A DNA stretch of 64,000 bases from Duganella sp. OV510 (GTDB lineage Bacteria; Pseudomonadota; Gammaproteobacteria; Burkholderiales; Burkholderiaceae_D). The translations under genes and the position numbers were made by a program. Below are positions 55,045 to 63,945 of the stretch, in pieces (position 1 is the stretch's first letter; every line of letters begins with the position of its first letter). The stretch is from the NCBI RefSeq assembly GCF_900100205.1, contig NZ_FNEQ01000001.1, positions 124,001 to 188,000 on the forward strand. The letters run 5' to 3'. The notes under the pieces were generated by a model that was not told where the DNA came from, did not search any database, and saw only the letters and a program-made list of their open reading frames with translations.

Positions 55045-55063
55045 AATGCAAGTCTATTGCATT
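55045..55063 (-). promoter_or_regulatory. Fur-like palindrome 2 overlapping the paoC stop
   Basis: AATGCAAGTCTATTGCATT has perfect 7-bp arms (AATGCAA/TTGCATT) around GTCTA. It starts 26 nt after the start of the first site and lies over the expected -35 region. The upstream molybdenum-enzyme gene ends inside it (TAG at 55054-55056). Confidence 0.6.
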
Positions 55064-57333
55064 ATTTTGTCCGGCGTCATCGGCGTGCTGCGCACACGCT
55101 TGCCCGTGGCGTGATAAATCGCGTTACTGATTGCGGCGGACACACCCACCAGCCCAATCTCTCCAACGCCCTTGGCGCCTATCTTGCTGACGATGCGATC
55201 ATCCTCCTGTACGAAGATGACATCGATCTCGTGGATGTCGGCATTGACGGAAACGTGGTACTCGGCCAGGTTGTGATTCATGAAGCGTCCCAGGCGATGA
55301 TCGCAATACGTCTCCTCGTGCAGTGCCTGCCCAATGCCCCACACCACGCCACCGATAATCTGGCTGCGCGCGGTCTTGGCGTTGATGATGCGGCCAGCGG
55401 CGATGGCGCTGACCACGCGCGTCACACGCACCGTGCCGAATTCCGGGTCGACGCGCACCTCGACAAATACCGCAGAATGGGTCGACCGCTGATACTTCAT
55501 CTGCCTCAGCATATTCGGCAGCATCAGGTACTTTTCCTCCAGACGCTGCGTTTCGCTGCCGGCCATGATGCCAACCAGCGAAATCGCCGTATCCGGCCGT
55601 CCGACCAGGCGCAGCTGGCCCTCGGCGAATTCGATGTCGGCAAAGCGCGCCTTGGCCAGCGGCGATGATGGCAGCTGCTTCGCCAGCTTGAACAAGGTCT
55701 TTTGCAGTTTCTCGCACACACCCTGCACCGCCGAACCGACCGTCGCCACGTGCGAGGAACCACCTTCGATCGGCGCTACCGGCAGCGTGGAATCACCCAG
55801 CTGGAAGCGCACTTTCTCCAGCGGTAGTCCCATCGCATCGGCAGCGATGATGCTCATTGCGGTATAGGTCCCGGTGCCGATATCTGTCGCGGCGCTGCTC
55901 ACCACCAGTGAGCCGTCGGCGTGCAATACTGCGCTGGCGCGCGCGAACATCTGCATCGCATCCCATACACCGGTGGCCATGCCCCAGCCGATCAGTTCAC
56001 GGCCCTCGCGCATGCTGCGCGGCTCCAGTGACCGCTTGTCCCAGCCGAAGCGTCGCGCGCCCTGCTCATAACAGGCCCGCAGTTCCTTGGTCGAATACGG
56101 CAGGCCGCGCGCCGGATCGATATCAGCGTAGTTCTTCAGCCGCAGCGCCAGCGGGTCCATCTTCAAGGCGTAGGACAATTCATCCATCGCCACTTCCAGC
56201 GCATGCACACCGTGGGCGGCGCCCGGCGCGCGCATATCGATCGGGCTGGCGTGGTCCAGGTCCACCAGATGGTAGCCTAGCCGTACGTGCTCGCATGCAT
56301 ACAGTTCGCCTGACCAGTTGACCACCACTTCAACGTAGTCCTCCATGCGCGAGGTTTCAGCCACGGCTTCATGGATAATCGACGTCAGCGTGCCATCCGC
56401 CTCGGCCGCCAGCTTCACACGTTGCAGCGTTTCCGGCCGGTGACCGAAGGTGAACATCTGCTGCCGCGTCAACACCACGCGCACCGAGCGCTCCAGCTTG
56501 AGCGCCGCCATGACAGCCAGCGGTAGCTGGTATTGCGGGCGCAGGCCCGAACCGAACGCCCCGCCCACATAGGGATTGCGCACGGTGACCTTGTCCTTCG
56601 ACAGGCCAAACACATGCGACACATACCAGCGGCTGTTCTGCGAGCTTTGCGTCTTGTCGTAGATGGTCAGGTGGCCGTCGGCATCGCGAATCACGGTACT
56701 GGCGAACATCTCCAGCGGATTGTGATGCTCTACGCCGCTGTAGTATTCGCCTTCGATCCTGACCGCTGCTTTTTCCCAGACTTCGTCGGCGTGCCCCTTG
56801 GGATCTGGCGGTGGCGTGAAACCGGCTTTCAGGCGACTGGGTTTATAAGAACGCTGCCGATTCTCCAGCAATGAGGTGGCGTGCAAATCCACCTGATAAT
56901 CCGCCTCCACCAGGCGGGCGGCATGGCGCGCGGCTTCAAAGGACTCGGCGACCACGAGGGCGATCGGCTGGCCGCTATACAGAATCTTGTCGTCGTACAG
57001 GGGACGGAACGGCGAACCGCCGGGCGCCGTCATATCCTTGTAAAAGATATCGAACGAACGGATACGCGGCCGATTCAGATGCGTGATGACGTCGACCACA
57101 CCGGGCGCTGCCAACGCGGCATCTGTGCGGATAAAGCTGATGCGTCCGCGTGGGACGGCGCTGCTCACCACCACGCCGTACAATAGCGCGTCCGCTGGAT
57201 GCTCCGCAGCGTAGCGTGCCTGACCGGTGACCTTGTCGCGGCCATCGACGCGCGACACCGCCATGCCGATGCTGACCGTGCCAGTACCCTCGTCCGCCGA
57301 TGGCGTGCGCAATGCTTCAATCAGATCCGTCAC
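55054..57333 (-). CDS. Molybdopterin-binding subunit of an aldehyde oxidoreductase (PaoC-like)
   Basis: Large subunit of a xanthine-dehydrogenase-family enzyme, 759 residues from the GTG at 57333, which has GGGGAG just upstream. A GTG at 57339 is also in frame. The Moco-binding domains start with VSRVDGRDKVTGQARYAAE. The catalytic Glu of the family is in KGVGEIGLVG (about residue 725), and GGAFGSGLRPQYQ is a Moco loop. Gene order and the cofactor features of the partner subunits match E. coli PaoABC (aromatic aldehyde oxidation). It overlaps the FAD-subunit gene by 17 nt. Confidence 0.92.
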   Translation of the reverse strand: MTDLIEALRTPSADEGTGTVSIGMAVSRVDGRDKVTGQARYAAEHPADALLYGVVVSSAVPRGRISFIRTDAALAAPGVVDVITHLNRPRIRSFDIFYKDMTAPGGSPFRPLYDDKILYSGQPIALVVAESFEAARHAARLVEADYQVDLHATSLLENRQRSYKPSRLKAGFTPPPDPKGHADEVWEKAAVRIEGEYYSGVEHHNPLEMFASTVIRDADGHLTIYDKTQSSQNSRWYVSHVFGLSKDKVTVRNPYVGGAFGSGLRPQYQLPLAVMAALKLERSVRVVLTRQQMFTFGHRPETLQRVKLAAEADGTLTSIIHEAVAETSRMEDYVEVVVNWSGELYACEHVRLGYHLVDLDHASPIDMRAPGAAHGVHALEVAMDELSYALKMDPLALRLKNYADIDPARGLPYSTKELRACYEQGARRFGWDKRSLEPRSMREGRELIGWGMATGVWDAMQMFARASAVLHADGSLVVSSAATDIGTGTYTAMSIIAADAMGLPLEKVRFQLGDSTLPVAPIEGGSSHVATVGSAVQGVCEKLQKTLFKLAKQLPSSPLAKARFADIEFAEGQLRLVGRPDTAISLVGIMAGSETQRLEEKYLMLPNMLRQMKYQRSTHSAVFVEVRVDPEFGTVRVTRVVSAIAAGRIINAKTARSQIIGGVVWGIGQALHEETYCDHRLGRFMNHNLAEYHVSVNADIHEIDVIFVQEDDRIVSKIGAKGVGEIGLVGVSAAISNAIYHATGKRVRSTPMTPDKIMQ

Positions 57334-58339
57334 GTTCACTCCCCGTATTATCGTAAGTACCTGCTGCCGCCAGTTTCAAGGCACGCACCACGGCGCGCCG
57401 GGCCAGCGGGATCTTGAAATCGTTCTGTCCTTGTCCTTGCGCGCCAGCCAGCAGGCTGTCTGCGGCGCGGCCAAAACTCTCGTCACCGGCAGGAAGCCCG
57501 ACCAGCAACGCTTCCGCCGCCGGCACACGCCACGGCTTGTGCGCCACGCCACCCAGGGCGATGCGCGCTTCACGTACCGTACCGTCGTCGCCGATGTCCA
57601 GCATGGCCGCCACCGAAACTAGCGCGAAGGCATAGGAAGCGCGGTCACGCAGCTTCAGATAATAGGAATGCGCGGCAAACTGCGAGGCTGGCGGCAACAC
57701 GATATGCGTTATCAGTTCATCCGGCGCCAGCGTAGCGTCAAGTTCTGGGCGGTCATCCGGCAAGCGGTGGAAATCGGCAAAGGGAATCTGGCGCTCACCC
57801 CTGGCAGAGCGCACATGCACCACCGCCTCCAGCGCAGCCAACGCCACACACATATCAGATGGATGAACGGCGATGCATTGATCGCTGGCGCCCAAAATGG
57901 CATGCTGGCGCGTCAAACCGCCGATCGCCGAACATCCGCTGCCCGGTTGGCGTTTGTTGCATGGCGTCGTCACATCGTAGAAGTAGTAGCAACGCGTACG
58001 TTGCAGCAGGTTGCCGCCATTGCTGGCCATATTACGGATCTGCGGCGAGGCGCCGGCGAGGATAGCGGCAGTCAGCAAGGGATAGCGTTCCCGCACCAGC
58101 GGGTGATAGGCAGTATCCGCGTTACGCGCGGTGGCGCCAAGCAGCAAGCCGTCATTCTCCGTCGACGTGATGTCGCCCAACGGCAGATTATTGATGTCGA
58201 CCAGCGTTGCCGGCCGCATGACGTATTCCTTCATCAGATCCAGCAAGTTCGTACCGCCGGCGATGAAGCGCGCGCCTTGGCTCAATTGAGCCAAGGCCTG
58301 GCCGGCATCGCCGGCGCGAAGATATTGGACTGGATTCAT
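57317..58339 (-). CDS. FAD/4Fe-4S subunit of an aldehyde oxidoreductase (PaoB-like)
   Basis: Middle subunit of the molybdenum hydroxylase, 340 residues. FAD-binding motifs are FIAGGTNLLDLMK (about 25-37) and NMASNGGNLLQRT (about 103-115). Next comes a Cys-rich loop with Cys117, Cys127 and Cys136 (RCYYF, PCNKRQPGSGC) plus Cys155, the extra iron-sulfur loop that sets PaoB-type subunits apart from ordinary xanthine dehydrogenase FAD subunits. It starts in the stop codon of the 2Fe-2S gene (ATGA). Confidence 0.92.
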   Translation of the reverse strand: MNPVQYLRAGDAGQALAQLSQGARFIAGGTNLLDLMKEYVMRPATLVDINNLPLGDITSTENDGLLLGATARNADTAYHPLVRERYPLLTAAILAGASPQIRNMASNGGNLLQRTRCYYFYDVTTPCNKRQPGSGCSAIGGLTRQHAILGASDQCIAVHPSDMCVALAALEAVVHVRSARGERQIPFADFHRLPDDRPELDATLAPDELITHIVLPPASQFAAHSYYLKLRDRASYAFALVSVAAMLDIGDDGTVREARIALGGVAHKPWRVPAAEALLVGLPAGDESFGRAADSLLAGAQGQGQNDFKIPLARRAVVRALKLAAAGTYDNTGSERDGSD

Positions 58340-58845
58340 GCGGGCACCGTACCTGGTTCATATGGCCGGCCGTCTTCGCGCTGTAGACCCATCACTTCAG
58401 TGACGGCTGCCACGATGCCGGGATAAGCGCCGCAGCGGCAGATATTGCCGCTCATAAGTTCACGCACCTGGTCAACGCTGCATGCCTGGCCTTCGTTGAT
58501 CAGGCCGACGGCGGAACACAGCTGGCCCGGCGTACAGTAACCGCACTGGAATGCATCATGTTCGATGAACGCCTGTTGCAGCGGGTGCAGCGTCCCATCC
58601 GCAAGGCCCTCAACCGTCGTGACTTGCTGGCCATCCTGCATCACGGCCAGCGTCAGGCACGAGTTAATGCGTTTGCCACCGACCAGTACAGTGCAGGCGC
58701 CGCACTGGCCGTGATCGCAGCCTTTCTTGGTGCCGGTCAGGCCGGCCCGCTCGCGCAGCAGGTCCAGCAGCGTGACCCAGGCCTCGACTTCAAACTGGCG
58801 AGACTCGCCATTCAGGTGCAGCTGTATCGGATAGCGTGATTCCAT
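58336..58845 (-). CDS. 2Fe-2S subunit of an aldehyde oxidoreductase (PaoA-like)
   Basis: Small iron-sulfur subunit of the molybdenum hydroxylase, 169 residues. The plant-ferredoxin cluster is ligated by Cys43, 48, 51 and 63 (KGCDHGQCGAC), and the second cluster by CGYCTPGQLC and NICRCGAYPG. Unlike E. coli PaoA it has no Tat extension, so the enzyme should be cytoplasmic. The GAGGAG site before its ATG lies within the last codons of the small membrane-protein gene upstream, giving translational coupling. Confidence 0.93.
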   Translation of the reverse strand: MESRYPIQLHLNGESRQFEVEAWVTLLDLLRERAGLTGTKKGCDHGQCGACTVLVGGKRINSCLTLAVMQDGQQVTTVEGLADGTLHPLQQAFIEHDAFQCGYCTPGQLCSAVGLINEGQACSVDQVRELMSGNICRCGAYPGIVAAVTEVMGLQREDGRPYEPGTVPA

Positions 58846-58846
58846 T

Positions 58847-59080
58847 TCACTCCTCGTTTTTCAGGATGCCGCGCACATTGGTGACGATCAGGCAGAGTTG
58901 CAAGGCGATCAGCGCCCAGGCATCGTCGTGCCACCCCCAGGCGATCCACAGCGCGTTACTAAGCAGGAAAGCAAAAAATCCTGTCTTGCGACGTGCTTGC
59001 GACTTGGATCCGACCAGCAGGCCGGCCAATACAGTCACCGCCATCGCCGGCCATTGCAACAAATCGATCCAGTCATTCAT
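58847..59080 (-). CDS. Small membrane protein upstream of paoABC
   Basis: A 77-residue protein with three hydrophobic segments (about 10-25, 34-48, 52-68) and a charged tail ending in KNEE. No family was recognised. Reasons to accept it are a clean ATG, the hydrophobic pattern, and its end exactly abutting the paoA-like gene, for which it supplies the GAGGAG ribosome site. It is the first gene of the molybdenum-enzyme operon and might anchor or serve the enzyme, which is speculation. Confidence 0.6.
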   Translation of the reverse strand: MNDWIDLLQWPAMAVTVLAGLLVGSKSQARRKTGFFAFLLSNALWIAWGWHDDAWALIALQLCLIVTNVRGILKNEE

Positions 59081-59200
59081 GGGTGCTCATTGGTGTGTTG
59101 CGACATTTGCCAGCATGGTCCATCACGCTTGCCCGGTATGTGCGACAACGCACGCGCACCGACTGTAGGTAATTGCGTGCGCGGATTAACAGACACTCGT

Positions 59201-60262
59201 ATGGATGAGATCGATCATGCTTGCATGAAAATCGAACGTCTACCATTTGCATCGGCCCACACGCTTGCGGAGTCGCTGGCGCGGCTGGCGCCTCGGCAAG
59301 CGCCGGGAGAACAGCTGGCGGAGTTGATCGCCGCTGGACAGGACCAGTTGCCGCTGCCCGCGCGTGGCGCAACTTTGCAACGCTGGCAATGCCTGGCGCT
59401 GACCGCGCATCATGACCTGGGACTGGCCAAGCTTTACGAGGGACATACCGACGCGCTGGCAATACTGGCCGAACTGCATGGTCCATCATTGCCGGGCGCA
59501 TCCTGGGGTGTATGGTGCGCGGAATCGCGCGACACCGCTGTTGTACTGCGCCACGCGAGCGATGGCAGCACTGTACTGGCGGGCCGCAAACAATGGTGCT
59601 CAGGTGCAGCCGCGCTAAGCCATGCGCTGGTCAGTTGCGAAGACGCCAACGGCGAACGGCAACTGGCGGCGGTGGCCTTGCGTGCGCCCGGCGTCACCAT
59701 TACCGATGAAGGCTGGCAAGCCGTCGGCATGGCGTCCACCACCAGCGTTGATGTGGTGTTTGACGACGTCCCTGCCGTACCTGTTGGCGGCCCTGGCGAC
59801 TATCTGAGCCGACCGGGGTTCTGGTACGGCGGCGCCGGCGTTGCCGCCTGCTGGTATGGCGCCGCACAAGCATTGGCGGAATACCTGCATGCCGCCGCGC
59901 GCGGCCAGTCGACGTCTAGTCAGCCGGACCCGCACCGCCTCGCCCACTTAGGTTCGGTGGACGTCGCGCTGGGTAGCGCAGCAGCCTTGATGCGCACGAC
60001 GGCTGCTGACATCGACCGCGCACCGGGTGCTTATGCGGGCCGCAAGGCGATGCGCCTGCGACTTGCTGTCGAAGAGGTGGCAAGCGAAGTGCTGCGCCAT
60101 GTCACCCGCGCGCTGGGTGCCGGGCCGCTGTGCCGCAACGAACGCTTTGCACGGCTCGCTGCCGACCTGCCGGTTTTCCTGCGCCAAAGCCATGCCGAGC
60201 GCGATCTCGCCGCACTGGGTGCACTTGTCACGCAACAGGAGATAGCGCCATGGGCTTTGTAA
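59201..60262 (+). CDS. Acyl-CoA-dehydrogenase-like flavoprotein
   Basis: A 353-residue protein related to acyl-CoA dehydrogenases: an N-terminal helical part, a middle domain with VLAGRKQWCSGAAALSHALV (about 125-145), then AVGMASTTSVDVVFDDVPAV, and a C-terminal helical domain. The usual catalytic Glu cannot be placed with confidence, and it is shorter than standard family members (about 380). No ribosome site is visible before 59201 or the alternative ATG at 59225. It is first in an operon with PIG-L, methyltransferase and GT2 genes; its stop lies 13 nt inside the next gene. Confidence 0.82.
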   Translation: MDEIDHACMKIERLPFASAHTLAESLARLAPRQAPGEQLAELIAAGQDQLPLPARGATLQRWQCLALTAHHDLGLAKLYEGHTDALAILAELHGPSLPGASWGVWCAESRDTAVVLRHASDGSTVLAGRKQWCSGAAALSHALVSCEDANGERQLAAVALRAPGVTITDEGWQAVGMASTTSVDVVFDDVPAVPVGGPGDYLSRPGFWYGGAGVAACWYGAAQALAEYLHAAARGQSTSSQPDPHRLAHLGSVDVALGSAAALMRTTAADIDRAPGAYAGRKAMRLRLAVEEVASEVLRHVTRALGAGPLCRNERFARLAADLPVFLRQSHAERDLAALGALVTQQEIAPWAL

Positions 60263-61170
60263 GCGAAACGCACGCACCAGGCCACGCCGCCAAGGGCGCC
60301 AGCGGCATGGGTGTGACCGCCGGCATGGGTGTCGCCGACGGCATGACTGTCGCCAGCGGCATGGGCATCGGTATCGGCAGCGGCACGGGTGTCGCCAGCG
60401 CCATCGGCACGCCCGGTCACGCCCACGACCGCCATATCGACGGCTGCGGCACGCTGGACGCCACCTGGCAAGCCTGGCCCGGCCTGGCCGCCCTGCTGCC
60501 CATTAGCGCTGCGGTGCTGGTCCCCGCACATCGTCGCGCCATCATCGTCGCACCGCATCCCGACGACGAAGTGCTGGCCTGTGGCGGCCTGCTGCAACTG
60601 CTGCACGCACAAGGCACCCACACCGTACTGCTGGCCGTCACCGATGGCGACGCCAGCCACCCCGGCTCCACGCTACTGACGCCCGCAGATCTCGGCCGCC
60701 ATCGCCCACGCGAAACCGCCGCAGCCATGCACGCGCTGGGCATCACACCGCATATTCTGCGCGCCCGCATCGGCGACGGCCAGGTCCTCGCCAACCTTGA
60801 TCAGCTACACAATCTGTTGGTGCAGCTACTGCAACCGGGGGACGTCGTCTTCACCACCTTTCGTCAAGACGGGCACCCGGACCACGAAGCCTGCGGCCTC
60901 GCAGCCGCACTCGCAGTCCGCGCCTGCCACGCGACACTGGTTGAAATGCCGGTCTGGAGCTGGCACTGGGCCACGCCTGGCGACCACCGCCTGCCATGGC
61001 GGCGCGCACGCCGCCTCCAACTGAGCGACGACATCCTGCAACGCAAGCAGCAAGCGGTCGAGTGCTTCCAGACGCAGCTAAACGACGATCCCAGCACCGG
61101 CCAGCCGGCCATTCTGCCGCCACACGTGCTGCAACGCCTGCTCCGTCCCTACGAGATTTATTTCATATGA
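60250..61170 (+). CDS. PIG-L family deacetylase with Gly/Met-rich N-terminal repeat
   Basis: A PIG-L/LmbE-family zinc deacetylase (N-acetylglucosaminyl or related N-deacetylation), 306 residues. The zinc motif HPDDE is at 103-107 (IIVAPHPDDEVLACGG), and the second His motif is in GHPDHEACG. Residues 18-49 form a low-complexity run of G-M-G-V hexapeptides encoded by an 18-nt tandem repeat, absent from typical family members. The start at 60250 overlaps the upstream gene by 13 nt; the stop overlaps the methyltransferase ATG. Confidence 0.88.
   Translation: MGFVSETHAPGHAAKGASGMGVTAGMGVADGMTVASGMGIGIGSGTGVASAIGTPGHAHDRHIDGCGTLDATWQAWPGLAALLPISAAVLVPAHRRAIIVAPHPDDEVLACGGLLQLLHAQGTHTVLLAVTDGDASHPGSTLLTPADLGRHRPRETAAAMHALGITPHILRARIGDGQVLANLDQLHNLLVQLLQPGDVVFTTFRQDGHPDHEACGLAAALAVRACHATLVEMPVWSWHWATPGDHRLPWRRARRLQLSDDILQRKQQAVECFQTQLNDDPSTGQPAILPPHVLQRLLRPYEIYFI
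60301..60396 (+). repeat. 18-nt tandem repeat within the PIG-L gene
   Basis: Four consecutive units (60301, 60319, 60337, 60355) and one after a 6-nt gap (60379) share the core GGCATGGGTGTCGCC with small changes, encoding SGMGVT/AGMGVA/DGMTVA/SGMGIG and SGTGVA. The unit is in phase with the reading frame, so changes in copy number would not break the protein. Confidence 0.8.
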
Positions 61171-61769
61171 GCGCCCATTTCCAACAGCTGTACGAGCGCG
61201 ACGAAGATCCCTGGCAGGTGCGCCAGCGCTGGTATGAACAACGCAAGCGCGCCTTGCTGCTGGCCAGCCTGCCCGAACCGCACTTCCGCCACGCCTTCGA
61301 ACCCGCCTGCGGCAACGGCGAACTGACCGCCATGCTGGCCCGCCGCGCCGACCGCGTCACCGCCAGCGACCTGTCGCCTGCCGCCGTCCAGCTGACCCGC
61401 AAGCGCCTGGGCTCCGCCGCGCTCAATCAGGTCACCGTACGCTGCCAGCGCATGCCGCAAGAGTGGCCTGCCGGCGCGAGTTTCGACCTGATCGTCATCA
61501 GCGAAATGGCCTACTACCTGTCCGAAGCCGAGCTGCACGAGGTACGAGGCCACGCCGTGCGCACGCTGGCCAGCGACGGCGCGCTGGTGCTATGCCACTG
61601 GCGCCGTCCATTCTCCGACCGCCGCCTGGACACCGACACCATCCACGCCGCCTTCGATGCCTGCCCCGAATTGCACAACATCGCCCGTCACGACGAAGCC
61701 GACTTCCTGCTCGACGTCTGGTCCTGCAGCCCGCGCTCCGTAGCGCAACGAGAAGGAGTCACCGCATGA
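61167..61769 (+). CDS. Class I SAM-dependent methyltransferase (NodS-like)
   Basis: A 200-residue Rossmann-fold methyltransferase. The N-terminal YERDEDPWQVRQRWYEQRKR segment is typical of NodS-like N-methyltransferases; motif I is EPACGNGEL (45-53), followed by ASDLSPAAV. Such enzymes methylate free amino groups of sugars or lipids, fitting a product of the PIG-L deacetylase encoded just before it. It overlaps both neighbours by ATGA junctions. Confidence 0.9.
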   Translation: MSAHFQQLYERDEDPWQVRQRWYEQRKRALLLASLPEPHFRHAFEPACGNGELTAMLARRADRVTASDLSPAAVQLTRKRLGSAALNQVTVRCQRMPQEWPAGASFDLIVISEMAYYLSEAELHEVRGHAVRTLASDGALVLCHWRRPFSDRRLDTDTIHAAFDACPELHNIARHDEADFLLDVWSCSPRSVAQREGVTA

Positions 61770-62503
61770 TCGGCGTCGTCATCCCGGCCCACAACGAAGA
61801 ACTGTACCTGGACACCAGCCTGCACGCCGCCCGTACAGCTGCAGCCAACCAGGCGCTGCACGGCGAAACAGTCCACATCACAGTGGTACTGGACAGCTGC
61901 ACCGACAACTCGCGCGCAATCGTCGAACGCCACGCGATGCAAGCCGGCTCCGCCTGCGGCATCGATTATCTTTGTGTCGATGCGCGCAATGTCGGCGTCA
62001 CCCGCGCCGCCGGGGTACGCCATGTGCTGGAACTCGGCGCCCGCTGGCTGGCCTTCACCGATGCGGACACCGTGGTGTCGCCAACATGGCTTTCCGCACA
62101 GTTGCAGCTCAATGTCGATGTGGTGTGCGGCACCGTAGCGGTCAGCGACTGGTCGCCGCACCGGTACAATGCCAGCACACTCTGTGAATACTTCAATAAC
62201 AGTTACACGGACGCCGACGGCCACCGCCACATACACGGCGCCAACATGGGCGTATCGGCCAATGCCTACCTGCGTGCTGGTGGCTTCGCGCCACTATCGT
62301 GCAGCGAAGACGTAGCGCTGGTCGAGGCATTGCAACGCACTGGCGCGCGCTTTGCCTGGAGCGCGGCGCCCCGCGTCACCACCAGCGCCCGTTGCGATGC
62401 CAAGGCGCGCGGCGGCTTCGGCGACACCCTGCTACGCTATGCAGAAAGCGCCCGCGCCGTGCTGAAAGCAGCAACAGTTGCACCATTGGCAACACGGGTT
62501 TGA
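61766..62503 (+). CDS. Glycosyltransferase family 2 protein
   Basis: A 245-residue GT-A fold glycosyltransferase. The opening VVIPAHNEELYLDTSL, the DAD metal motif (99-101) and the later CSEDVALVEALQRTG (ED acceptor region) are present. There are no membrane helices, so it probably acts on a cytoplasmic face. It is the last gene of the four-gene cassette and likely transfers a sugar in the same pathway. It starts in the methyltransferase stop codon. Confidence 0.9.
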   Translation: MIGVVIPAHNEELYLDTSLHAARTAAANQALHGETVHITVVLDSCTDNSRAIVERHAMQAGSACGIDYLCVDARNVGVTRAAGVRHVLELGARWLAFTDADTVVSPTWLSAQLQLNVDVVCGTVAVSDWSPHRYNASTLCEYFNNSYTDADGHRHIHGANMGVSANAYLRAGGFAPLSCSEDVALVEALQRTGARFAWSAAPRVTTSARCDAKARGGFGDTLLRYAESARAVLKAATVAPLATRV

Positions 62504-62619
62504 CGCCGCCGCCGCAAAATATCGTACTATTGCTGCTTAGGACGTAGCCAGCCAACCGCCGCCACGCATTTTTATAGCAGTCGAGCAGGCCGATGGCGGC
62601 CGCAAAGGAGTCCTTGTTC

Positions 62620-63945
62620 ATGACGCCACCCGTAATATCCGCGCAGCTGGAGCCATCCAGCGAAGGCGTCAACGGCCAGCGCAGCGTGGCGATACGCCAG
62701 CACGGCCCATGGTGGCGGCGCTTCCTCAGCTTCATCGGCCCCGGCTACCTGGTGGCGGTCGGCTATATGGACCCCGGCAACTGGGCCACCGACCTTGCCG
62801 GCGGCGCCGCCTACGGCTATTCGCTGCTGTGGATTATCGGCCTGTCCAGCTGCATGGCGATGCTGCTGCAAGTGCTGACGGCGCGCCTTGGCATCGTCGC
62901 CCAGGCCGATCTGGCGCAGTTATGCCGCCGCCATTCCTCGCGCCGCTCGGCATTCTGCCAATGGCTGCTGTGCGAAATCGCCATCTGCGCCTGCGACCTG
63001 GCCGAGGTGATCGGCACCGCCATCGCCCTCAAGCTGCTGTTCGGTATTCCGCTGAGTTACGGTGTGATCCTGACCGCGCTCGACGTCTTCGCCATCCTGT
63101 GGCTGCAACAGCGCGGCTTCCGTTATCTGGAAGCGTTCGTCATCGCGCTGCTGGCGGTAATCTTCATCTGCTTCGGCATCAACCTGCTGCTGGCGCAGCC
63201 GGAATGGCGCGCTGTGGCCGAGGGCTTCATACCGTCGGCGCAAACGGTGACCGATCCCGGCATGCTATACCTGGCCATCGGCATCATCGGCGCCACCGTC
63301 ATGCCGCACAATCTGTACCTGCACTCGTCCACCGTCCAGACGCGCCGCTTCGAGACCAGCGATGCCGGCAAGCGCAAGGCCATCTCCTTCGCCACCGCCG
63401 ACATCATTGTCGCGCTGGGCCTGGCCTGCCTGGTCAACGCCGCCATCCTGATCACCTCGGCGGCGGTGTTCCACACCACCGGTAACGCGCACGTGGCCGA
63501 CCTGGAGGAAGCCTATCAACTGCTTGGCCCGCTGACCGGCACCGCGCTGGCCAGCATCCTGTTCGGCGTGGCGCTGCTGGCGGCCGGCCTCAGCTCCTCG
63601 GTCACCGCTACGCTGGCCGGGCAGATCGTCATGGAAGGTTTTGTGCAGATCCGCATGCCGCCCTGGGCACGTCGGCTGACCACCCGCTCGGTGGCCATCG
63701 TCCCGGCGCTGGTGGTAACGCTGGCGTATGGCGACAAGGGCGTCACCAGCCTGCTGCTGCTCAGCCAGGTCATCCTCAGCATGCAACTGCCGTTTGCCAT
63801 GTGGCCGCTGATCCGTTACGCAAGTGACCGCAATATCATGGGCAGCTTCGCCACGCCGCGAGCCATCACCTGGCTAGCCTGGACCATGATGGCGGCCATC
63901 GTCAGCCTCAACGTCATCATGGTCACGCGCGCGCTGGCCGGCTAA
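62620..63945 (+). CDS. mntH: Nramp-family divalent metal transporter
   Basis: Proton-coupled Mn2+/Fe2+ importer of the Nramp/MntH family, 441 residues with 11 helices. The helix-1 metal motif is DPGN (51-54) and the helix-6 motif is MPHN (228-231), both intact. The ATG at 62620 has AAAGGAG 9 nt upstream; an in-frame ATG at 62593 lacks a site. No manganese riboswitch could be recognised in the 116 nt before it. The gene symbol is given by family motif and not by close comparison. Confidence 0.92.

Follow-up and report, generated by a model that had tools for sequence, protein, structure and literature searches.

We analyzed a 64,000-nucleotide (nt) stretch of the Duganella sp. OV510 genome (contig NZ_FNEQ01000001.1, positions 124,001 to 188,000), hereafter the window. 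It contains a four-gene cassette for an acyl-CoA dehydrogenase (ACAD)-fold flavoprotein, a PIG-L family N-deacetylase, a NodS-like methyltransferase (MT) and a small family 2 glycosyltransferase (GT2; gene, GT). An earlier reading of this DNA, made from its letters alone (the sequence-only reading), had reported four genes overlapping at every junction, and we recovered all four open reading frames (ORFs) together with overlaps of 13 nt (ACAD/PIG-L), 4 nt (PIG-L/MT) and 4 nt (MT/GT) (Table 1). The four-gene set is real and widespread, occurring in at least three bacterial phyla, and in several lineages it lies close to genes of two unrelated trehalose-synthesis routes.

Table 1. Features of the cassette and its flanks in the window.
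Feature	Coordinates	Strand	Description
ACAD-fold flavoprotein gene	59201..60262	+	353 amino acids (aa), ATG start, intact; Pfam Acyl-CoA_dh_M; nearest SfnB/DszC/KijD3-type flavin monooxygenases
PIG-L family N-deacetylase gene	60250..61170	+	306 aa, ATG start, intact; HPDDE motif; GMGV-rich N-terminal extension
Tandem repeats of 18 nt that encode the GMGV-rich N-terminus of PIG-L	60303..60407	+	TRF
NodS-like class I S-adenosylmethionine (SAM) methyltransferase gene	61167..61769	+	200 aa, ATG start, intact
Small soluble GT2 glycosyltransferase gene	61766..62503	+	245 aa, ATG start, intact; TDAD motif; family signature DGHRHIHGAN
Molybdopterin subunit, PaoC-like	55054..57339	-	Pfam MoCoBD_1, MoCoBD_2, Ald_Xan_dh_C
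FAD subunit, PaoB-like	57317..58339	-	Pfam FAD_binding_5, CO_deh_flav_C
[2Fe-2S] subunit, PaoA-like	58336..58845	-	Pfam Fer2, Fer2_2
77-aa hydrophobic ORF, between oxidase trio and cassette	58847-59080	-	ends 1 nt before PaoA-like start
Nramp metal transporter	62593..63945	+	Pfam Nramp, 444.8 bits

Pfam recognizes the flavoprotein by its middle domain only (PF02770, 34.8 bits against a cut-off of 33.3). Its AlphaFold2 model (pLDDT 91.6) adopts the ACAD fold, with VIA Z scores of 30.5-32.3 over 314-331 residues among the 50 entries shown. Several comparisons point toward the class D flavin monooxygenases of the same fold (DszC/TdsC, SfnB/MsuC, KijD3, DnmZ, ORF36). DszC, KijD3 and DnmZ were the top three Foldseek matches, and a profile search of the PDB ranked TdsC/DszC and methanesulfinate monooxygenase best, followed by a mixed group in which the amino-sugar enzymes KijD3, DnmZ and ORF36 stand among CoA dehydrogenases. 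Among 46 relatives searched with NCBIfam, SfnB was matched by all 46 and DszC by 24, compared with a single relative for a CoA dehydrogenase model (glutaryl-CoA, E 0.001). The window protein scores far below the equivalog cut-offs that would place it with SfnB (43.4 of 430.9 bits) or DszC (19.3 of 850 bits), and it reached no acyl-CoA dehydrogenase equivalog among the curated models. It differs from the class D enzymes in being shorter and only 18-21% identical to them, and in its C-terminal Pfam matches, PF00441 (weak) in 9/46 relatives and PF08028 in 1/46, which do not favor the monooxygenase side. The VIA ranking mixes monooxygenases and dehydrogenases with tied top Z scores and does not separate them; KijD3 (3m9v) is among its rows, and the absence of DnmZ from the 50 entries shown is no evidence. 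As regards the catalytic glutamate of dehydrogenases, what was observed is a conserved C-terminal motif resembling LRQSHAERDL. Taken together, the flavoprotein is probably a flavin monooxygenase, and a plain fatty-acid dehydrogenase is rated low. The sequence-only description of an acyl-CoA-dehydrogenase-like flavoprotein thus stands for the fold, but the protein is closer to flavin monooxygenases than to CoA dehydrogenases. The annotation "acyl-CoA dehydrogenase" is accordingly in question, as the cassette enzyme is probably not one of fatty-acid metabolism.

The remaining three proteins lie well above their Pfam cut-offs: PIG-L at 91.8 bits (PF02585, cut-off 28.2), the MT at 59.9 bits (NodS, PF05401, cut-off 24) and the GT2 at 51.7 bits (Glycos_transf_2, PF00535, cut-off 23.3). 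Deacetylation, amine methylation and sugar transfer, as first proposed from the letters, form a plausible set. Two of the active-site motifs named at that stage, HPDDE of PIG-L and DAD of the GT2, are preserved. The HPDDE columns (103-107) are invariant in 35 PIG-L sequences, where the DGHPDH columns are mostly invariant as well, and D99 A100 D101 of the GT2 is invariant in 55. The GT2 model is well predicted (AlphaFold2, pLDDT 93.8), and the protein has no long hydrophobic stretch by eye. Curated models matched by its 55 family members comprise TIGR04283 (all 55), EpsD (48), PRK10073 (44) and MftF (36). Weak matches to glucosyl-3-phosphoglycerate synthase in 20/55 members count toward the trehalose-linked pathway favored below. 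Comparison of folds retrieved many GT2 enzymes with differing donors and acceptors at similar Z, from which the donor is not deducible.

By PDB profile, the solved relatives of PIG-L include diacetylchitobiose deacetylases, TT1542, BshB1 and MshB. The last two bring to mind the low-molecular-weight thiols mycothiol, bacillithiol and N-methyl-bacillithiol, in whose synthesis a hexosamine is transferred in N-acetylated form and the small glycoside is then deacetylated by a PIG-L enzyme. A cofactor of this kind, made by attaching N-acetylglucosamine (GlcNAc) to inositol or a small acid, followed by deacetylation, N-methylation and further decoration, would be in keeping with the matches of all 35 PIG-L members to the BshB1 and BshB2 models. 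The window protein nevertheless reaches just 54.8 of the 182.5 bits required by the BshB1 equivalog (TIGR04001). In addition, MshA and BshA belong to GT4 whereas the cassette enzyme is a GT2, the cassette has an extra flavoprotein, and no Cys-ligase-like protein appeared among the neighbors scanned, although no dedicated search was made. We consider a thiol-like cofactor very unlikely.

For the MT, the family profile retrieved PDB 4isc (E 4.4e-71 over 165 positions) and then NodS (3ofj, E 7.3e-24). The former, which we take to be a Pseudomonas syringae structural-genomics entry, is titled "Methyltransferase" and belongs to the same family by profile; the search output gives no function for it. 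With NodS as the nearest named methyltransferase, the cassette recalls the Nod factor module NodC/NodB/NodS, which likewise comprises a GT2, an N-deacetylase and an N-methyltransferase. A Nod-factor-like or other glycolipid pathway would have these enzymes process an amino sugar that is acylated or attached to a lipid, with the ACAD-like protein modifying the acyl chain. Two further observations fit such a product. A Rubrobacter version of the cassette includes a polysaccharide deacetylase, a member of the NodB superfamily, and eight Paraburkholderia/Burkholderia loci (L074, L079, L084, L090, L093, L097, L103, L110) carry lysylphosphatidylglycerol-synthase and VirJ-like genes 3-6 kb after GT. 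Set against this, the window MT falls far short of the NodS nodulation methyltransferase equivalog (NF041650, 62.4 of 300 bits), the GT2 is small and soluble-looking, PIG-L stands in for NodB and the flavoprotein for NodA, and the nearest curated models of the flavoprotein are monooxygenases. None of the four proteins is an acyltransferase, flippase or membrane glycosyltransferase, and the five window neighbors scanned include no acyltransferase or flippase. Neither a NodA N-acyltransferase nor a membrane NodC was present among the window proteins scanned (no dedicated search was made), and no symbiosis context was seen around the cassette. Of the two products first suggested, a glycolipid or a small glycoside, the glycolipid consequently appears improbable, and a soluble glycoside is preferred.

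Several observations support the cassette as one unit. We compared junctions and protein divergence, using script-chosen starts, in 54 loci that have all four genes within 6 kb; the near-duplicates L078, L123, L126 and L127 were left out of this and the neighbor comparison below. A start codon lies exactly at the 13-nt ACAD/PIG-L overlap in 47/54 loci (chance, three of 64 codons), and the 4-nt overlaps are kept in 31 (PIG-L/MT) and 45 (MT/GT) of the 54. The distance matrices of the four proteins correlate at r 0.75-0.89, a level reached for any pair in 0/500 permutations, with shared ancestry not removed. Kept overlaps and parallel divergence support the earlier proposal of one translational unit. 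A looser arrangement, in which the ACAD-fold enzyme has its own role and PIG-L, MT and GT form a separate, often co-located pathway, draws on 8 of the 29 ACAD-bearing family genomes. These eight lack a GT relative at E 0.001 and an MT or PIG-L relative at E 1e-15, in a search whose positive control (genome G072) gave MT and PIG-L matches. In seven of them a lone ACAD gene was seen in the 8.6-15 kb read (hit near full length), and for the eighth the match is partial and the contig short. Against it, all 21 family genomes with a GT ortholog also have the ACAD gene, and GT-only loci belong to genomes with an ACAD gene elsewhere in 14/14 cases checked (of 15; L082 is the one unchecked). Moreover, ACAD distances follow those of the other three proteins at r 0.86-0.88. 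We regard this looser arrangement as unlikely. The cassette was also called self-contained, which is right only in part, as GT or PIG-L may be apart or missing and ACAD stands alone in the eight family genomes. At loci L274-L280, from family genomes with no detected GT, MT or PIG-L relative, the lone ACAD-like gene scores close to full family level.

Gene order was surveyed in GT-centered loci obtained by scanning genome contigs with a GT profile, which yielded at least 599 pattern matches, 536 or more of them relatives. Architecture was tallied over all 80 named loci, the near-duplicates L076 and L078 included. Architectures were called by BLAST with the window proteins, and profiles find GT and PIG-L in some divergent loci that BLAST missed (L204, L205). 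The closest named GT relatives among the matches listed are from Duganella sacchari (75%) and D. guangzhouensis (71%). The canonical order ACAD>PIG-L>MT>GT is contiguous in 38/80 loci and extends to Acinetobacter, Comamonas and Streptomycetaceae. Other arrangements include ACAD>MT>GT without PIG-L (17/80), GT>ACAD>PIG-L>MT, contiguous (4/80), and PIG-L>MT>GT at a contig end (1/80). Split loci within 10 kb place ACAD-PIG-L-MT apart from GT (2/80) or have GT, MT and ACAD non-contiguous (2/80); one locus has MT and GT only, and 15 have GT only. The sequence-only reading had named genes usually lying apart in relatives as its refutation; put to this test, 38 of the 80 loci are canonical and contiguous, and rearranged, split and PIG-L-less forms also exist.

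Two genome draws extend this picture. From the family (145 genomes), a GT match at E 0.001 was obtained in 34; an E below 1e-60 marks 21 as orthologs, and the remainder are at superfamily level (E 1e-5 to 1e-3). The locus was fetched for 20 of the 21 orthologs and is canonical in 20/20, and the cassette is present in 5/8 same-genus genomes listed in this draw. In the phylum draw (398 genomes), the ACAD gene is present at E 1e-30 or better in 30; the match is strong (E below 1e-60) in 22 of these, and the other 8 are weaker homologs from another class. By BLAST, the 28 loci read out of these 30 comprise 13 canonical, 4 GT>ACAD>PIG-L>MT, 4 ACAD>PIG-L>MT, 2 ACAD>MT>GT and 5 others. Outside Pseudomonadota, the canonical order occurs on Kitasatospora, Streptomyces and Embleya plasmids, and a Deinococcus plasmid carries ACAD>PIG-L>MT with a convergent GT. 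Divergent versions of the cassette are found in Sphingomonas, Deinococcus and Rubrobacter. In D. radiodurans, ACAD>PIG-L is followed by MT beyond a helicase gene on the opposite strand; the 13 kb examined there include no annotated GT. The 779-aa ACAD homolog of this species (L269:675-3014) has ~400 extra N-terminal residues that look glycoside-hydrolase-like by eye, and Pfam names its ACAD part only. The Rubrobacter operon reads polysaccharide deacetylase>ACAD>MT>pyridine-nucleotide/FAD oxidoreductase>GT and none of the genes annotated in the 16 kb examined is a PIG-L. Within a plasmid collection, 19 Acinetobacter records carry the ACAD gene; Acinetobacter plasmids were seen to bear the cassette together with ots genes, flanked on both sides by transposase genes in L142. 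No description of a four-gene cassette of this kind turned up in the open-access literature searched, in agreement with the earlier view of an undescribed pathway. The enzymes are of known kinds; their combination and the trehalose link are, as far as we know, new. The glycosyltransferase genes described in PMC6599016 form a different cluster.

Trehalose-synthesis genes recur beside the cassette, contrary to the initial impression that nothing in the neighborhood explains it; catalase and molybdopterin-oxidoreductase genes also accompany it in some lineages. Given that the 124 cassette loci assembled for the neighbor comparison are dominated by Burkholderiales, linkage was measured in the phylum sample, as the distance from the ACAD gene to OtsA genes (PF00982) or to TreY genes scoring over the TIGR02401 cut-off. 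Such a gene lies within 10 kb in 9/30 genomes and 6/21 genera, at gaps of 173 to 5856 nt, where gene density and genome size predict 0.23 (Poisson 4e-12 by genome, 1.6e-7 by genus). The neighbor is OtsA in G018, G339 and G218 and TreY in G350, G380, G429, G452, G485 and G497; four of the nine genomes share a genus, and G018 belongs to the family set too. Among the 21 GT genomes of that family set, four (G089, G018, G056, G126) have OtsA 0.1-7 kb from GT.

The arrangements themselves are varied. Two Comamonas loci read otsA>ACAD>PIG-L>MT>GT>otsB, with otsA and ACAD overlapping by 4 nt, and the order otsB>otsA>cassette occurs in L188 and L194. On the treY side, treY>glgX>cassette runs on one strand in L115 (Pseudomonas haemolytica), L178, L180, L181 and L197, the last four being of one genus and L181 having no detected GT; L183 has glgX-treY convergent with the cassette, and in L193 the cassette follows treY by 1.8 kb. 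Convergent ots genes are found in Massilia (L076, L106) and Acinetobacter (L004, L142), and Legionella lytica has trehalose-phosphatase>GH65>PIG-L>MT>GT>ACAD. Because the arrangements differ among lineages, several of these placements look independent. Curated cut-offs are exceeded by the linked TreY and GlgX, tested at one locus, and by the linked OtsB, tested at two. Since two unrelated routes to trehalose are involved, trehalose itself, and not trehalose-6-phosphate, may be what matters. The five loci that follow treY and glgX on the same strand, including L181 without GT, resemble the Pseudomonas glgA-treZ-malQ-treY-glgX operon (PMC8084333), whose paper contains the terms "deacetylase" and "acyl-CoA" 0 times in its main text. 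In P. aeruginosa, the same text reports, mutation of glgA, treZ or treY leads to poor growth at high salt, and trehalose gives no direct protection against drying.

We tentatively favor a soluble pathway that operates during water or oxidative stress, acts in concert with trehalose synthesis and yields a small glycoside of an N-methylated amino sugar. Judged by protein family, the GT2 would transfer an N-acetyl-hexosamine, probably GlcNAc from UDP-GlcNAc, to a small acceptor; PIG-L would take off the acetyl group; the NodS-like enzyme would methylate the freed amine; and the ACAD-fold flavoprotein, as a flavin monooxygenase, would oxidize the product, perhaps at nitrogen. Gene neighborhood is what ties this chemistry to stress and to trehalose, and trehalose or a trehalose derivative is the favored acceptor or partner. 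Deacetylation as a needed step is supported by the Rubrobacter operon, where a polysaccharide deacetylase replaces PIG-L, and by a distinct PIG-L cluster found near GT or the cassette in four loci where the cassette PIG-L is missing (L003, L065, L080, L112). A flavin monooxygenase would also be consistent with the oxidoreductase encoded between the Rubrobacter MT and GT. A second PIG-L gene was also seen directly after GT in L115, L178, L180 and L197 and after MT in L181, all Pseudomonas-type loci.

Several results weigh against this proposal, among them the lone ACAD genes of the family and the mixed fold ranking of the flavoprotein given above. The alternative PIG-L cluster is present in the flanks of 0/17 contiguous ACAD>MT>GT loci; the deacetylase may thus be encoded far away or not be needed. 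Linked OtsA fell below the TIGR02400 equivalog cut-off in 4/4 cases tested; these copies have therefore diverged, and what they make is assumed. In the window genome itself, otsAB are on a different contig (C7). In the phylum sample, 0/8 of the genomes from another class have OtsA or TreY at 10 kb or less from ACAD. The 12-25 kb examined at the Deinococcus, Rubrobacter, Sphingomonas, Novosphingobium, Kitasatospora, Streptomyces and Embleya loci likewise contained no OtsA, OtsB or TreY. When the 124 cassette loci were compared by direct tblastn with 60 random 20-kb regions from cassette-bearing genomes, OtsA, OtsB and TreY pooled gave 13/124 against 2/60 (one-sided Fisher 0.08, not significant; singly, OtsA 6 vs 1, OtsB 5 vs 1, TreY 7 vs 1). 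The trehalose linkage could reflect co-residence in stress islands.

Other neighbors bear on that possibility, with the proviso that the loci are related and p-values are uncorrected for the ~20 families tried. De novo clustering of flank ORFs was noisy, owing to high-GC antisense ORFs, and served to pick neighbor families for Pfam. FdhF-like molybdopterin oxidoreductases were found in 13/124 cassette loci versus 0/60 regions (p 0.005; 6 of the 13 in Caballeronia), or 7/115 (p 0.05) once nine Caballeronia GT-only loci are removed. Zn-alcohol dehydrogenase (8/124 vs 0/60, p 0.04) and KatE (10/124 vs 1/60, p 0.08) recur too. PoxB-like, GlgX and MalQ (each 7/124 vs 0/60, p 0.06) run in the same direction short of 0.05, and general short-chain dehydrogenases/reductases show no enrichment (11/124 vs 7/60). 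The FdhF-like, Zn-alcohol dehydrogenase and KatE genes, with the catalase that adjoins Sphingomonas and Novosphingobium cassettes, speak for a rival explanation, a general-stress accessory cassette. Its methylated amino-sugar glycoside would be unrelated to trehalose and merely stored and co-regulated with catalase, molybdenum oxidoreductase and trehalose genes. The majority of cassettes, the window's included, do not lie beside trehalose genes, which suits this explanation. Two arrangements are tighter than island co-residence would lead one to expect: the insertion between otsA and otsB in Comamonas and, in different lineages, a cassette that continues otsBA or treY-glgX on the same strand. 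We consider the plain stress-island explanation nearly as likely as the trehalose-linked pathway.

A bolder version of the trehalose-linked pathway is a long shot. It would make the product an undescribed class of protectant spanning at least three phyla: in the best-linked lineages, an N-methylated amino-sugar conjugate of trehalose whose amine is N-oxygenated, to a hydroxylamine or nitrone, by a KijD3-like flavoenzyme. The compound would be both osmolyte and radical trap, fed by OtsAB or TreYZ, with relatives in Deinococcus, Acinetobacter plasmids, Massilia and Pseudomonas. KijD3 and DnmZ act on amino sugars, and the likeness of the flavoprotein to the nitrososynthases KijD3, DnmZ and ORF36 is one of fold and weak profile similarity only. 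If the trehalose-linked pathway holds, trehalose is not always the end product of stress metabolism: it would be converted into, or complemented by, a tailored amino-sugar glycoside through an accessory pathway of wide distribution. This would offer a testable explanation for differences in osmotic, oxidative or drying tolerance between strains whose trehalose genes are the same, and would give a function to four gene families now annotated by superfamily only. The trehalose link also makes the question of the product directly testable.

In the genome of the window, PIG-L and GT each have a single match at E 0.001. The GMGV-type repeat is absent from the PIG-L N-termini of seven relatives compared, and the extension probably arose by recent in-frame expansion just beyond the 13-nt overlap. 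A scan of 58800-62700 found no sigma-70-type promoter site, and terminator-like sites were not above chance. The flanks are as first described, with paoABC before the cassette and Nramp after it; the 77-aa minus-strand ORF, unlisted before, is an addition for which a Pfam search gave no match. A small ORF resembling it by eye lies at 14298-14555 of L204. By its domains, the minus-strand trio is of the three-subunit molybdenum aldehyde oxidase/xanthine dehydrogenase type, and a TonB receptor gene lies near it on the same side. PaoC at first appeared enriched near cassettes (11/124 vs 0/60, p 0.011), which we reject as a one-lineage effect: 9 of the 11 are the Caballeronia GT-only loci, and without Caballeronia the count is 2/115 vs 0/60 (p 0.43). 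Those nine loci (L088, L091, L092, L098, L100, L102, L104, L105, L108) have their ACAD gene elsewhere in the genome and a paoABC-type trio on the other strand after GT. Nramp directly follows the cassette in two Duganella loci and in Legionella lytica (L037, L038, L141). More broadly, Nramp genes were seen beside the cassette or its GT, or within ~10 kb, in Duganella, Legionella lytica, Paraburkholderia and Caballeronia (including L080 and L145).

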